DNA from: a virus
IMG/VR virus record: IMGVR_UViG_3300020394_000320
Coordinates: 1-29,836 of that record
Strand: one strand, 5' to 3'
DNA: 29,836 nucleotides
Shown here: positions 2,527 through 28,743 of the stretch, piece after piece
How the letters are laid out: each line of letters starts with the position of its first letter
How positions within the stretch are numbered: position 1 is the stretch's first letter
The notes under the pieces: generated by a model
Databases searched by the model: none
What the model was told of the DNA's origin: nothing
Seen by the model: the letters and a program-made list of their open reading frames with translations, nothing else
Translations under genes and position numbers: made by a program

Positions 2527-3615
2527 CTAAGTAATTCCATAGTAACTTTTATCAGTTACCATTAAGTTAACAGGTCTACTATTTTGATCAAATACCTCAT
2601 CTTGATCGTATGCTTTAATCGACGGTACAGTACCAACAGTCATTTCGCCAATAACAAAACCTGTTAATGCAGCACCAACAACAAGACTTAATGAGAGTCC
2701 TCCTGTAAAAACAGCTAAAATAATACCTAATATTGACCCAAGAAGCCCTCCAATACCACAACTTGTATCTACGTATTGATAAGCTGCACCAGCAAAATCA
2801 GCTTTCCAAGTTGCAGTGTGGGTCGTAGTATTTCGAGGGTGGCGAACACATCCGCGAAAAGAAGCCCAAGATTTATACTCAAAAGCATACTGTTTAGTAA
2901 CAAGCCCAAAACCACTACAATCAATTGTTCCCTCCCCACTATTATTATATGCTAATCCTCCATAAGCAGAAGGCACAATACTATATAGTTTGTTTGCAGT
3001 GTTAGTAACAGAACCCGAATGGTCTTTAGTTTTGTTGGATGTAAAATTAACATGACTTGAAGTAGTATAGCTGTTTGCTCCTAGTGAAACTGAACCTTTT
3101 GAATTTGTTTTTATAGACGATGGGTGTGTAATTGTTACAACATCATCAATACGAAGCGGTCGTTTGCTGTCTGTAAAAACTAACTTTGAACTGCTATCAT
3201 ATACTGCAATACCAAAATCGCTTAAGGTTACAGCAGAACTAGGCAATTCGGTTAATGGAGCAAAAGCATAAACAGCAGGTGCTTGACTAGAAGTTCCACT
3301 AAATAGTAAATTAACTACCCATTTTGTTCCTTCATTAACAACATCCATTATACAAATTTCTTGGTTGTTATGATTGGGGCAGTAGAAAGGGATAAAGAAA
3401 TCAACATCCAAAGTAATATCATATTGTATAATGCGCCCCATATCATAGTTACTAGATCGAGTAGCAGCATTAATACCTATATGATGGTCCCCTGTATAAG
3501 TTGGTTGTACCGCGCTTGTCGTCGTTGACATTTGGCCTGCATAAACGACGGACGAATAGTCACTATGAAACGCTATCTTGTTATCAGAACCATATGCAAC
3601 AATACCGTAACTCAT
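2527..3615 (-). CDS. Tail protein with C-terminal hydrophobic Gly-rich segment (362 aa)
   Basis: Starts at ATG 3615, overlapping the upstream stop (ATGA). The N-terminus MSYGIVAYGSDNKIAFHSD resembles the opening of phage tail-tip proteins in which a short strand ('YG..VY....') starts a beta domain. Ser/Thr-rich beta segments fill most of the protein. Around residues 285-335 there is a long Gly/Leu/Ile-rich stretch (GGLLGSILGIILAVFTGG and following) with two possible membrane-inserting helices, unusual for a fibre. It could insert into the host envelope during DNA ejection; that is inference. It lies next to the tail-tip protein gene. Confidence 0.65.
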   Translation of the reverse strand: MSYGIVAYGSDNKIAFHSDYSSVVYAGQMSTTTSAVQPTYTGDHHIGINAATRSSNYDMGRIIQYDITLDVDFFIPFYCPNHNNQEICIMDVVNEGTKWVVNLLFSGTSSQAPAVYAFAPLTELPSSAVTLSDFGIAVYDSSSKLVFTDSKRPLRIDDVVTITHPSSIKTNSKGSVSLGANSYTTSSHVNFTSNKTKDHSGSVTNTANKLYSIVPSAYGGLAYNNSGEGTIDCSGFGLVTKQYAFEYKSWASFRGCVRHPRNTTTHTATWKADFAGAAYQYVDTSCGIGGLLGSILGIILAVFTGGLSLSLVVGAALTGFVIGEMTVGTVPSIKAYDQDEVFDQNSRPVNLMVTDKSYYGIT

Positions 3616-3884
3616 CGGCCAAGAACCAAATACTGATGGGGAGTTCCATTACTAGGTTGCGTAATAGTAATAGTTGATGAGGTTTGAGAGCTAGTAGGAC
3701 GAAGCTCTTCGTCAGCTGTATCTCTTATACCAGTAGGAGTGAAAACTACTTTAAACTCTGTTACGTCTGCGTAGTTACTCTTAGTTAACGTTATTGTTGT
3801 TGATGAATTTAAATTTCCTTTAGCGATAACACTAAGAGAACTGTTTGTAAGATTTACCCCATCAACTTGTATCCCAAACGCCAT
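3612..3884 (-). CDS. Small beta-rich tail accessory protein (90 aa)
   Basis: Starts at ATG 3884, which overlaps the stop of the 1002-residue tail gene (TAATG), and its own stop overlaps the next ATG. It begins MAFGIQVDGVNLTNSSLSVI and has alternating Thr/Ile/Val strands, consistent with a small beta-sandwich. No family recognised. Translation is apparently coupled on both sides, which argues for stoichiometric production with the two tail proteins. Confidence 0.65.
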   Translation of the reverse strand: MAFGIQVDGVNLTNSSLSVIAKGNLNSSTTITLTKSNYADVTEFKVVFTPTGIRDTADEELRPTSSQTSSTITITQPSNGTPHQYLVLGR

Positions 3885-6800
3885 TATGACAAATCCCCTA
3901 TTTTAACTCGAAGAGTTGATCCATCGAATACTTCAATTTTGGTAGAAGTAATTTTTAATCTATCACCTGTGGTTGCGTTAGATACATCTAATGTCCCACG
4001 AAAAGTTGCGTCATTTGCCTCTATCTGTCCTGTTTTATCTATTTTCCAACCGGCAGTCCCTGCAGAATAATTTGATGATTGTATAACATTGCCAATCTTA
4101 GCATTATCAATTGATGCATCTTCAATCATAGCTTGTGTAAGAAAGACAGTATTATTAGACACTCGGAAAGGTTCAGCAACTTGTTGAGTCTGACCAGCAA
4201 CCATCTGATTAACAAGTGCACCGTCGTCAACACTAATATCAGCTGAAGAACTATTAATATTTATTGTGTTGTTCACTGTAGAGCCGTCTGTATCTATATA
4301 TGAATGCATATTCATAGTTACAGTTAAGTTATCATTTCCGACAGCATTTCTAGTAACGGATACTTGGTATGGAGTGAACGACCCAGTGTGTAATCGAGTA
4401 GTAGAAAACGCAATGCCGCCAAATTGGTCAACAGAACCATCTATTGTGTTTATAAGCGCCGTTATATTACTAGTAGTTATTCTATTGCCGTTGGTAGGAT
4501 CGCCGCCCATATTATGTACGCTAGCCTCAGGTCTGTAATAATAAGTTGCGTCGTTAAAATTTGTAGACTGGATAAGTGAATTGCTAAGACCCGTTGGTAT
4601 AGTTAAAACACCAGAAGTAACCTCTCTATTTACTACTGTTTTTCCACTAGACGATGTAACATCTTTTATTACTCTTACAATGTGGTTCTTACCATAGCTA
4701 GTATAACTATTTCCACTTGAAGTACGTTCCCTCCTACCAAGTTCTTCATACGTAGCAGAAAGCCCGGGTATTCCATTTATAGCAGCAGCTAGATTTAAGC
4801 CTGTATTCCTAAAGTTATCTTCATTATCTTGAGTATTTGCCCATGCGTTATAAGGATATATTCTATACGCATATATGTCATTACCCATACCACTACTGTG
4901 TATAGCACAAACATATTTTAATCTATCTGTATCACTACTGCTACTACTGCTTTGGCTGGGATTATCAAAGTCATACTGGGTAGGGGTCCCAGTTGGAACA
5001 TCTACTGCAACTGTTAGTTCAACTTTTCTATCACCAGAACTTGCACCTGCATTAAATGTAGTTGAGTTACTATATTGTTGTTGTGTAACTTCTACTCCAT
5101 TTAGAAAATATTTAACTCCATTTTCATAATCTGCGCCCATATTACTACCACTAGAATCAATGTAATCACCTCTTTTAATCAGTAGTGGATGCCCATCATT
5201 TGATGAATCGTTTTGATTAAAAGTATAAACTTTACCTACAATAACACGAAGAACAGGTCTTTCTTGATACTGAGTAGTAGAATATGCATTACCATTAAAA
5301 TCAAACTGCCCTTGCTCCCCTTTATCAAAAGCAAAAACATTGGTAGCCCCAGATTGATTACTATTAGCAACAACTTTAACTGTAATTAAAGCACCAGTCA
5401 TGCCAGCACTTGGAGTGTATATCTTTTTTAATCTGTATCCTTGACTATACGTATCAATAGAAGATTGAAGAGTGGGATCTCCTGTAGTTTGTCCGTAAGC
5501 TTGAAAAGAGTTCATAGGATATCCTGCTACCGGGTGTGCGCTGGTGAATACTTGATTATTATCTAAAGGATAGTGTTGAGGTAATTTATTAGTAGTTGCG
5601 CCAGTACCACCAGTAAAAGGTGCGTCTGCACTAATGACTCCAAAACACGCTACAGTGTAAGTCTTTCCGTCTACTTCAAACTCTAATTGATGCCGATTTG
5701 TATATATGTTCCATGTAGAACTATAGTTACTACCTTTTAATTCTTCTGCAAAAATAGCCATATCGCTATTACTCCAACTGGGGGCTTTAACTAGATCTTT
5801 ATTTAAAAAAATAGTAGAAGTATTTCCAAAAAAAGGAGCCGTAGGAGGTACATTATAAGTATAACCATCCACTGGAGTATTGAACCAATTATTTTTAGGA
5901 TCAGCCTCTAAAGTTATTTCTTCGCCATTATGTTTAGCAAATCTAATTTGTGCACCTACTGGGATATACTCCCAGTCACGCACCTTTATTGTAAAACTAG
6001 CTCCTGTTGGTGTAGTACGAATGCTAAACACGTCCGCATTAAATAACGCACCTGATCCATTTCCAAAAAGAGATATGTTTGGATTTGAAACTGACGATAT
6101 GCCAATATTGCTACCACTAGAATCAACGTTGTAATTAACAGTTCCACCAAGATGTATGTCTGTACCAGCGATTTTGTTACCATAAAAATCAACAGTGTTT
6201 AAAAGACTTGCAGTAATTTTATCTGCCGTTAGATCTTTAATTTGTGCATTTGTTATAGACGCATCGTGAATAAAAGCAGTTTTCATGTAAGTGCCTGCCG
6301 GAATAGTTACACCATTAATTACTGTTTGTGTATCTATTTGAAAAAAAGGTGACTGAGAGTTAGTTCCATAAGCCTCAGCTAACAACTCCATAAGGAAGGC
6401 AGGGCTAGCCGAAGTTGCACCTTGTGTTCCTGCTGTTTGATTAAATGCGCTTGCTTCCCCATTCTGATTTATATTTCGTACCCAATAATATCTTGTACCT
6501 GACCCACCTATAACATGAGAAAAATTGTTACCAGATGTCATACCGACAAGTACAGCGTCACCTATAACATCAGAAGTATGAGCCCAGATTTCAGTATAAG
6601 CATGCCCCGCATAAACTGGAGCATTCCAACTAACTATTATACTAGCATGAGCTCCAGATACTGATAAATTTGTAGGAGGTTGTGGAGCTTCAATTGCAAT
6701 AATAGAATTTATAGAAGGTGAAGCTGTTATATTTCCTGTAGATGTGCCTGTTACTATTCCAGTAGCAATAAGCTTTCGTGCAGTTAAAACACCGTCAACT

Positions 6801-27091: not shown

Positions 27092-27103
27092 GCCACACGT
27101 TAA
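27092..27103. promoter_or_regulatory. Recurrent dyad motif at the head of the late operon
   Basis: Minus strand TTAACGTGTGGC; with flanks CTGTTAACGTGTGG. A second weaker copy (plus TTAACACGTTCT, 27074-27085) lies 18 bases into the small terminase gene. A TTGACC box at 27120-27125 stands 17 bases from TAACGT, giving TSS near 27090. This would be the principal leftward start. Confidence 0.5.
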
Positions 27104-27357
27104 CAGATGCGCTTCTTTTGGTCAACTAGCAGCATGACGAAGAACAAAAGGGGAACAATAGAAAAAACAGGGGTTGCGATGAACGGGATACATAAGGCCG
27201 GGGCCGGGGGGTGCAGCACCTCGGTCCCTCCCCTCCCCTTGTTTACGCTTTTCCATTGATAGAACATAAGACCATGCGAAAAAACGTGGCAGTTCTCGGC
27301 AGATAACCTCTCGTGGTAGTGGGTACTAGCAAAGCAGTAACATGTGATGCGTGTATT

Positions 27358-27374
27358 CCCTCACGGGCTGAGGG
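27358..27374. promoter_or_regulatory. Hairpin CCCTCA-loop-TGAGGG in the non-coding divide
   Basis: Six Watson-Crick pairs (extendable by two weaker pairs) with a 5-base loop CGGGC. A second short hairpin CGAC-ACGGTG-GTCG follows at 27379. No T-tract follows on either strand, so it is not a classic terminator. Confidence 0.35.
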
Positions 27375-27460
27375 GAGACGACACGGTGGTCGTGGAGAGC
27401 GACGGAAGTACGGGTGTCAGAAGGTTTGGGGTCGTTAGTTGAGTGGATAGGGTAGCGTAG

Positions 27461-27562
27461 CCATGCCATATATATGCAAAGCATGGAGCGTCCTCACCGA
27501 TTAAGTTCGGCGGCACTGTAACTCAAAAGGTTACATACTGTACATTCAGAGAGTGTGCAGTA
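27461..27562 (+). ncRNA. Hairpin-rich leader of the first rightward gene (possible structured RNA)
   Basis: Four successive stems occur in 100 bases ahead of the ATG at 27595: CCATGC/GCATGG (27461-27486), CCGA/TCGG with loop TTAAGT (27497-27510), GTAAC/GTTAC with loop TCAAAAG (27518-27534), and a 9-bp stem TACTGTACA/TGTGCAGTA with a 9-base loop (27536-27562). After the last stem come CCTTAATCTTTT and the ribosome site TGGAGTAATT. It does not match a tRNA or a riboswitch I know. A structured leader or attenuator is the likeliest reading. Confidence 0.4.
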
Positions 27563-27594
27563 CCTTAATCTTTTAACAAAACAATGGAGTAATT

Positions 27595-28092
27595 ATGCTT
27601 ACAGAAAAACAAATTAAGGCAAAAATTGGTGGCATTAATAGATCAACTAAAGCTATCAGAAACAATATCCAAGAAGTTCTTTGCAGTATTGCAGGACGTG
27701 GATTTGACGTAGAAGTTGGCGACGTTTCTTTGTTCACTAATCTTGTCAATGCGACAACTGGTATGAACCAAGCACTTATCAAAAGATGGATACGTGAGAA
27801 TGGGTTAGCCACTTGGAACAAAGACAAGGGTAGATATACTTTGAACAAGAACGCGCAAACTAAAGCAAATGAAGAGTTCGACGACGCTCACGCATATTGC
27901 TTGTATCTTTTCACTGACGAAACAAAAACTTGGTACAACCCACCTAAGTCAGAAAGCAACGGCGACAAGAAAGAGTTCGACGTCAAGGCTTGGGCGGCGA
28001 GAGCGTACAGTTCCCACAAAGATCATCTTGATGCTATGATCAAGGAACTTGCCAAGTACAAGGAAAAGGCAAAGCTTGACCTTGTCGCGTAA
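27595..28092 (+). CDS. First rightward (early) gene, unknown function (165 aa)
   Basis: Starts at ATG 27595 with ribosome site AATGGAGTAATT. The protein is lysine-rich and mixed alpha/beta: MLTEKQIKAKIGGINRSTKA, then NNIQEVLCSIAGRGFDVEVG, NQALIKRWIRENGLATWNKD, and a C-terminal helix ending YKEKAKLDLVA. The segment around residues 55-85 (MNQALIKRWIRENG, TWNKDKGRYTL) resembles a small winged-helix-like DNA-binding unit, which is only an impression. It heads the early operon behind a structured leader and is followed by the iteron cluster, so a replication or regulatory role, including iteron binding, is worth testing. Confidence 0.65.
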   Translation: MLTEKQIKAKIGGINRSTKAIRNNIQEVLCSIAGRGFDVEVGDVSLFTNLVNATTGMNQALIKRWIRENGLATWNKDKGRYTLNKNAQTKANEEFDDAHAYCLYLFTDETKTWYNPPKSESNGDKKEFDVKAWAARAYSSHKDHLDAMIKELAKYKEKAKLDLVA

Positions 28093-28177
28093 GTGACGCC
28101 ATGCGAAACGTCATGTAAAACGTCATATTGGAAAGCTCAATAAAAACAATCACTTGAGTATACCTTTATGACGTTAT

Positions 28178-28206
28178 GACGTTATGACGTTAATATAAAG
28201 TATAAT
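28178..28206 (+). promoter_or_regulatory. Possible promoter embedded in the iterons
   Basis: TATAAT at 28201-28206 is a perfect -10 box. The best -35 at 17 bases (GACGTT, 28178-28183) is poor and is made of iteron sequence. If used, iteron-bound protein would control it directly. Confidence 0.3.
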
Positions 28207-28229
28207 CAGATATTTCAAAGTGTGCATGG

Positions 28230-28241
28230 TTAACGTGTATA
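28230..28241. promoter_or_regulatory. Recurrent dyad motif on the rightward side
   Basis: Plus strand TTAACGTGTATA, with flanks ATGGTTAACGTGTATACG. It shares GTTAACGTGT exactly with the copy before the small terminase but points rightward, as do the genes here. It lies between the two iteron groups. Confidence 0.45.
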
Positions 28242-28375
28242 CGACCGCTTATGATATGTCTCTCTCAATGAGCGTCATAACGTCATAAGCTAACAAACTC
28301 AATAACTTAAACAAATCGAAACGTCATAATGAGCGTCATAACTCTTATGAACGTCACATACTATTGGAGGTACTA

Positions 28376-28660
28376 ATGAAGTCTTATCATAATTATCAAA
28401 AGCCATCACATAAAGTATCGTGCAACTGGCATAGAAAATTATCCACTGCGGACAAACGCGACAAAGCTATTGCACGTGGTGTATCCGAAACTGCAACCAA
28501 CAAGCACAAGGATATTCTTGAGAAGTATTCGATCACTTCTGATGACGGTGCTTGGCTAGTTGTGATGAAAGGTAGACACGACGTTCCTGTCTATAGATCT
28601 GCCACGCTCAACGACGCTATCGAGTACACACATTATTTCGATCGTGTCTATAACGCGTAA
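28376..28660 (+). CDS. Small early protein of unknown function (94 aa)
   Basis: Start set at ATG 28376 because TTGGAGGTACTA lies immediately before it; an upstream TTG reading would swallow that site. The protein MKSYHNYQKPSHKVSCNWHR is basic at the N-terminus with three His and one Cys, then helical (KRDKAIARGVSETATNKHKD), then a short beta part (GAWLVVMKGRHDVPVYRSAT). No family recognised. It is followed ten bases later by a tRNA gene. Confidence 0.6.
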   Translation: MKSYHNYQKPSHKVSCNWHRKLSTADKRDKAIARGVSETATNKHKDILEKYSITSDDGAWLVVMKGRHDVPVYRSATLNDAIEYTHYFDRVYNA

Positions 28661-28669: not shown

Positions 28670-28743
28670 GGGGGTCTGGTGTAATGGTAGCACGACAAGT
28701 TCCAACCTTGTAAGCGTGGGTTCAATTCCTACGACCTCTGCCA
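28670..28743 (+). tRNA. tRNA-Trp (anticodon CCA), CCA end encoded
   Basis: The 74 bases fold into a full cloverleaf. Acceptor: GGGGGTC with GACCTCT (two G-T pairs). D arm: GTGT-AATGGTA-GCAC. Anticodon arm: ACAAG-TTCCAAC-CTTGT, perfect stem, anticodon CCA at loop positions 3-5. Variable region: AAGC. T arm: GTGGG-TTCAATT-CCTAC. Then G and CCA. The D arm resembles tRNA-Gly, but shifting the loop to a TCC anticodon breaks the stem, so Trp is preferred. It lies inside the rightward gene row. It could supplement host UGG decoding or mark a former integration site; no integrase is visible. Confidence 0.85.

Follow-up and report, generated by a model that had tools for sequence, protein, structure and literature searches.

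Opposed 8-bp iterons with rigid geometry mark a probable replication origin in a group of uncultured podovirus-like phages

The window, by which we mean the whole stretch of DNA analysed, spans a 29,836-base record of an uncultured virus, a podovirus-like phage. Its late module, with the terminase and portal genes, is transcribed leftward, and its early genes run rightward from position 27595. The two modules are separated by about 500 bp with no evident gene (27097-27594), which hold a terminator-like hairpin at 27536-27562 and may contain the early promoters or a genome end. The gap separating the first two early genes (27595-28092 and 28376-28660) holds a cluster of short repeats, and a tRNA-Trp (CCA) gene lies shortly downstream at 28670-28743. 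A tRNA-Trp gene is also found near the array in two relatives (G010, L038:1375-1448; G002, L060:18513-18586) and is absent in the other relatives scanned. The GC skew reverses close to where the two modules meet; it follows gene direction and is therefore uninformative on an origin. The features of the region are listed below.

27595-28092, plus strand: first early gene, encoding a 165-aa protein of phrog_1448 (unknown function), predicted to be winged-helix-like.
28097-28128, minus strand: left outer arm, three iterons at 12-bp spacing (CGCCATGC, CGTCATGT, CGTCATAT), degenerate in the window and perfect in several relatives.
28144-28156, plus strand: IHF-like site AAACAATCACTTG in the left spacer, matching 8 of 9 consensus positions, at the same offset in close relatives (p about 0.1 alone).
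28166-28189, plus strand: inner-left iterons, three tandem copies of TTATGACG, recognised by motif count and geometry score.
28190-28272, no strand: core of 83 bp between the opposed inner arrays, with a sequence that diverges among relatives.
28190-28219, no strand: AT-rich candidate DNA-unwinding element abutting the triple, the second-weakest 30-bp duplex start among the 29,807 in the window.
28273-28288, minus strand: inner-right iterons, two tandem copies (CGTCATAACGTCATAA on the plus strand), recognised by motif count.
28297-28309, plus strand: IHF-like site ACTCAATAACTTA in the right spacer, with the element TCAAnnnnTTAC, the most conserved part of that spacer.
28322-28359, minus strand: right outer arm, with perfect copies at 28322 and 28334 and a degenerate one at 28352; 41 bp separate the second inner-right copy from the first outer copy, as in most relatives.

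The motif TTATGACG occurs eight times in the window against an expectation of 0.92, a count that no shuffle reached. Seven of the eight copies fall within 28166-28341, starting at 28166, 28174 and 28182 on the plus strand and at 28273, 28281, 28322 and 28334 on the minus strand; the remaining copy lies elsewhere in the window. Degenerate copies are located at 28097 (CGCCATGC), 28109 (CGTCATGT), 28121 (CGTCATAT) and 28352 (CGTCACAT). The initial annotation had described a cluster of seven perfect copies, three in tandem and four on the opposite strand, together with degenerate ones, and this description holds, far above chance; the exact 12-bp spacing of the left degenerate copies had been missed. 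We scored the array geometry as three tandem units followed by two inverted units 85-130 bp further, with a maximum of 32. The window array scores 32, against no more than 23 for the best of 30 first-order Markov shuffles of a 55-kb relative.

The same array, motif included, is present in at least 10 IMG/VR contigs, and about 10 more carry it with another motif. When IMG/VR was scanned for TTATGACGTTATGACG, 31 stretches were obtained, 10 of them with an opposed pair about 100 bp away. All 10 records with the opposed pair encode a relative of the 165-residue protein (35-100% identity), and most of the other stretches are, by our estimate, what chance would produce for a 16-mer. Absence of the repeats from close relatives had been named beforehand as an observation that would speak against a functional array; they are present in the close relatives examined. 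The spacings of the inner units are near-invariant, at 8-8-8 in the triple and 8 in the inner-right pair. In ten same-motif relatives the last left outer copy lies 45 bp from the triple (44 in one), and the second inner-right copy lies 41 bp from the next outer copy wherever the latter is perfect. The first-to-first distance across the core is 107 bp in the window and 107 or 117-120 bp in relatives, the ten giving 107, 117 or 119 bp. Even phages with phrog_1448 proteins of only 25-35% identity preserve this geometry and the same orientation to the early genes. The array follows the phrog_1448 gene in one clade and precedes it in the other, and its function is therefore not tied to a place beside that gene.

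Loci found through the protein family alone are laid out alike, and most or all of their copies have a different motif: CGTAATAA in L072, TGTCATAA in L083, GTAGCA in L081, and TGTCTTAA or close forms in L074, L075, L079, L092 and G020; GGACAA in L082 fits the layout more loosely. Such a joint change of most or all copies is expected if a single protein reads every copy. The protein encoded just before the array in the window had been proposed as that reader, a proposal disfavoured by the pair L083 and L084. Across 4.6 kb these two loci are 88.9% identical, with a few residue differences between their phrog_1448 proteins; even so, L084 has TGTCTTAA in its three visible copies, where TGTCATAA stands in L083. 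With the array preceding the gene in other relatives, the sequence comparison suggests that the 165-residue protein is probably not the iteron reader. The structural model of this protein has no significant match in the PDB. A further long relative, G011, encodes a homologous helicase and lacks the array geometry, displaying GGGGTTAA repeats at 16-bp spacing instead. In this GC-rich phage the GGGGTTAA/TTTAACCCC repeats, partly at 16-bp spacing, surround the same gene pair (L095, about 3300-5700) and possibly represent a differently built origin.

The weakness of the duplex beside the triple is shared widely: in 16 of 18 arrays no more than about 0.2% of the contig is equally weak, and the arrays of L036 and L032 are those with duplexes that are not exceptionally weak. 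The TATAAT at 28201-28206, reported earlier within the AT-rich segment, is indeed present; it is not kept in relatives, and the promoter scan found neither a matching -35 for it nor a promoter above shuffles. The IHF-like sites separate the inner from the outer repeats at constant offsets. The TCAAnnnnTTAC element occupies a single offset, and conservation reaches 0.83 in its IHF-consensus columns against 0.55 in the other columns, while among the clades nearest the window the best IHF match of the left spacer holds a constant offset. Since the p-values of single sites are modest (about 0.05-0.1 for most), the case for IHF rests on position and conservation.

The window stops before any replication gene, helicase included. 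The array and a helicase gene share a contig in G010 (55 kb) and G020 (59 kb) only, too few for a covariation test; in both, the array heads the early module, with a DUF927 primase-helicase encoded about 15 kb further on. The early module of G010 encodes a MoxR-like ATPase, a VWA protein, DNA polymerase A, an exonuclease, an SNF2 helicase, a Gp2.5-like SSB and the DUF927 primase-helicase, and G020 carries ORFs matching these in size and order, plus the DUF927 protein. The G020 primase-helicase has 982 residues, for which Pfam reports only DUF927; from its typical residues, we read the N-terminus as a likely archaeo-eukaryotic primase. In G010 the corresponding sequence occupies two ORFs instead, of 321 and 445 aa, which overlap (L051:4590-6834), perhaps because of a frameshift or a sequencing error.

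The profile of the primase-helicase family matches SCCmec Cch in the PDB (5dgk, E 5.5e-10), with one irrelevant weak match besides. The C-terminal domain of the G020 protein was modelled with only moderate confidence overall (mean pLDDT 65, rising to 74-88 over the winged helix). By both structure programs the top match of this model is SaPIbov1 Rep (8tch) (Foldseek E 4.5e-3, probability 0.96; Z 9.4, rmsd 3.9, 111 aligned); the match to Cch has Z 7.1. Conservation of the C-terminal domain is 0.54, against 0.83 for the helicase core; the lower value fits a changing specificity, and is likewise seen elsewhere in the protein. A helicase related to SaPI Rep and Cch, with a predicted C-terminal winged helix, is found in G010 and G020. 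As the window ends before any helicase gene, we infer such a helicase in its own phage; the DUF927 primase-helicase is the likely reader of the iterons.

The recurrence of one pattern in many related phages, with its signal respelled consistently, marks the array as the probable start of DNA copying. The initial annotation had offered an origin or a switch; the origin is supported by the repeats and their rigid geometry, the concerted motif change, the duplex minimum, the conserved IHF-like element and the SaPI-Rep-like domain of the candidate initiator in relatives, and the binder then proposed is not. We assign a probability of about 0.7 to the array being a replication origin that works in the manner of SaPI/PICI origins, with extra outer arms. 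The DUF927 primase-helicase would bind the 8-bp iterons via its C-terminal winged-helix domain, and the facing tandem inner arrays would load two helicase assemblies in opposite orientations. Melting at the AT-rich element beside the triple would then give rise to bidirectional forks. A bending protein similar to IHF, bound between the inner and outer repeats, may fold the outer arms back onto the inner arrays. We tentatively suggest, at somewhat less than even odds, that this constitutes a two-tier origin not described before, in which facing inner 8-bp tandem iterons are combined with 12-bp-spaced, IHF-folded outer arms at fixed 45- and 41-bp distances, and which is kept across a diverse phage lineage while the initiator and the iterons change specificity together. 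How DNA copying starts is unknown for most uncultured tailed phages, and the array provides a defined candidate origin with a named candidate initiator. The phage group is seen in many metagenomes, its candidate origin links to the replicons of pathogenicity-island satellites, and the arrays, with their matched motif changes, form a naturally occurring set of candidate origins for the study of initiator-iteron co-evolution.

Among the other readings, the strongest, though unlikely, casts the repeats as operators through which a phage repressor or activator would act on the early genes, and gives them no part in starting replication. The array heads the early module between divergently transcribed modules and in one clade directly precedes the first early gene, AT-rich DNA also suits promoters, and the neighbouring protein is predicted to be winged-helix-like. 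However, the unconserved TATAAT and the negative promoter scan do not favour a switch, the outer arms hold exact spacing around a core of variable sequence and length, and the neighbouring protein barely changes while the motif does.

An attP-like attachment site, with arm repeats, IHF sites and a variable core serving a tyrosine recombinase, is improbable. It would account for the outer arms, the IHF-like sites, the variability of the core and the tRNA-Trp gene near the array in the window, G010 and G002, and integrase-family genes are present in G011 and G020. Yet the integrase of G020 lies about 17 kb from the array, none was found in the window or G010, and the IHF-like sites lie outside the inner repeats rather than between core and arms. 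The opposed pattern was also not found in 84,980 genomes searched, with no array seen whole or clearly split, and lone triples there are microsatellite-like, although a prophage would split the array. The least probable reading is a packaging or terminase-recognition site near a genome end. Some 1 kb separates the array from the gene before terL; in phage tf, which has a similar layout, the terminal repeat is found between terS and the first early gene; and lambda cosB likewise pairs terminase repeats with IHF. Against this, terminal repeats or cut sites were not found at the array, contig ends do not, as judged by eye, clearly cluster at one point, and in the clade of the window the array is found within the early module, past its first gene. 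The tyrosine recombinase family genes (G020:42316-42714 and G011:60430-60849) include one that adjoins the early module at its end, and the phages concerned could be temperate, or could use the recombinase in another way.

Searches of named phages revealed no DNA match to the array region beyond short hits at chance level, and tblastn with the 165-aa protein of the window gave no match among them; a divergent homologue of this protein weakly matches an early gene of many T7-like phages. The array was not found in VpV262 or tf, both of which have proteins in the structural family search. Three candidates were rejected: APK16, with only a borderline AT-rich score of 24; Pseudomonas phage Rollin, with tandem TGGCGCAG beside a run of N and no convincing opposed pair; and Rhizobium phage RHph_TM3_14A, which has its weakest duplex in the early noncoding gap (19577) and repeats not above chance. 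The microsatellite-like TTATGACG triples in Prevotella/Bacteroidales, Streptomyces, Ignavibacteria and a few other genomes (L125-L142) have no opposed pair. A T7-like origin, started by transcription, would call for a single-subunit phage RNA polymerase and its promoters; the polymerase (PF00940) had no match in five records including the long relatives, nor in any control genome. A literature search found no description of the array.

SaPI Rep binds iterons through its C-terminal domain (PMC7581432), and PICI origins always have two iteron sets around an AT-rich region (PMC6092414), an arrangement also found in the window. The proposed phage origin would share with them an initiator helicase with a C-terminal dsDNA-binding domain and iterons that differ between elements. 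The SaPI origin adjoins rep, whereas the phage array lies about 15 kb from the helicase gene (G010, G020), belongs to a large tailed-phage genome and would be served by a helicase fused to a likely primase; rigid 12-bp-spaced outer arms with IHF-like sites are not described in the passages on PICI origins that we found. In the PDB, no protein other than SCCmec Cch gives the phage protein a convincing sequence-profile match. Cch2 binds direct repeats through its C-terminal domain but belongs to another helicase family, its putative-origin site has only three 5-nt iterons, and the phage protein differs in being a longer fusion. Iteron plasmid origins (RK2, R6K, pSC101) resemble the array in placing iterons by an AT-rich unwinding element, with IHF, but their iterons are longer and usually form a single direct array, and plasmid Rep proteins are not helicases. 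The origin of phage P4 has short iterons and a primase-helicase initiator, the alpha protein; P4 and the P4-like L017 differ from the phage array in their D5_N helicase family and in wider, less regular spacing. L017, an unrelated contig, has opposed TTATGACG pairs between genes for a D5-type helicase and a zinc-ribbon primase, in an intergenic stretch that also holds AT-rich DNA and an IHF-like site. Two such P4-like contigs (L017:9418-9729 and L012:1860-2110) have this iteron as opposed pairs lying between a D5-type helicase gene and a primase gene.
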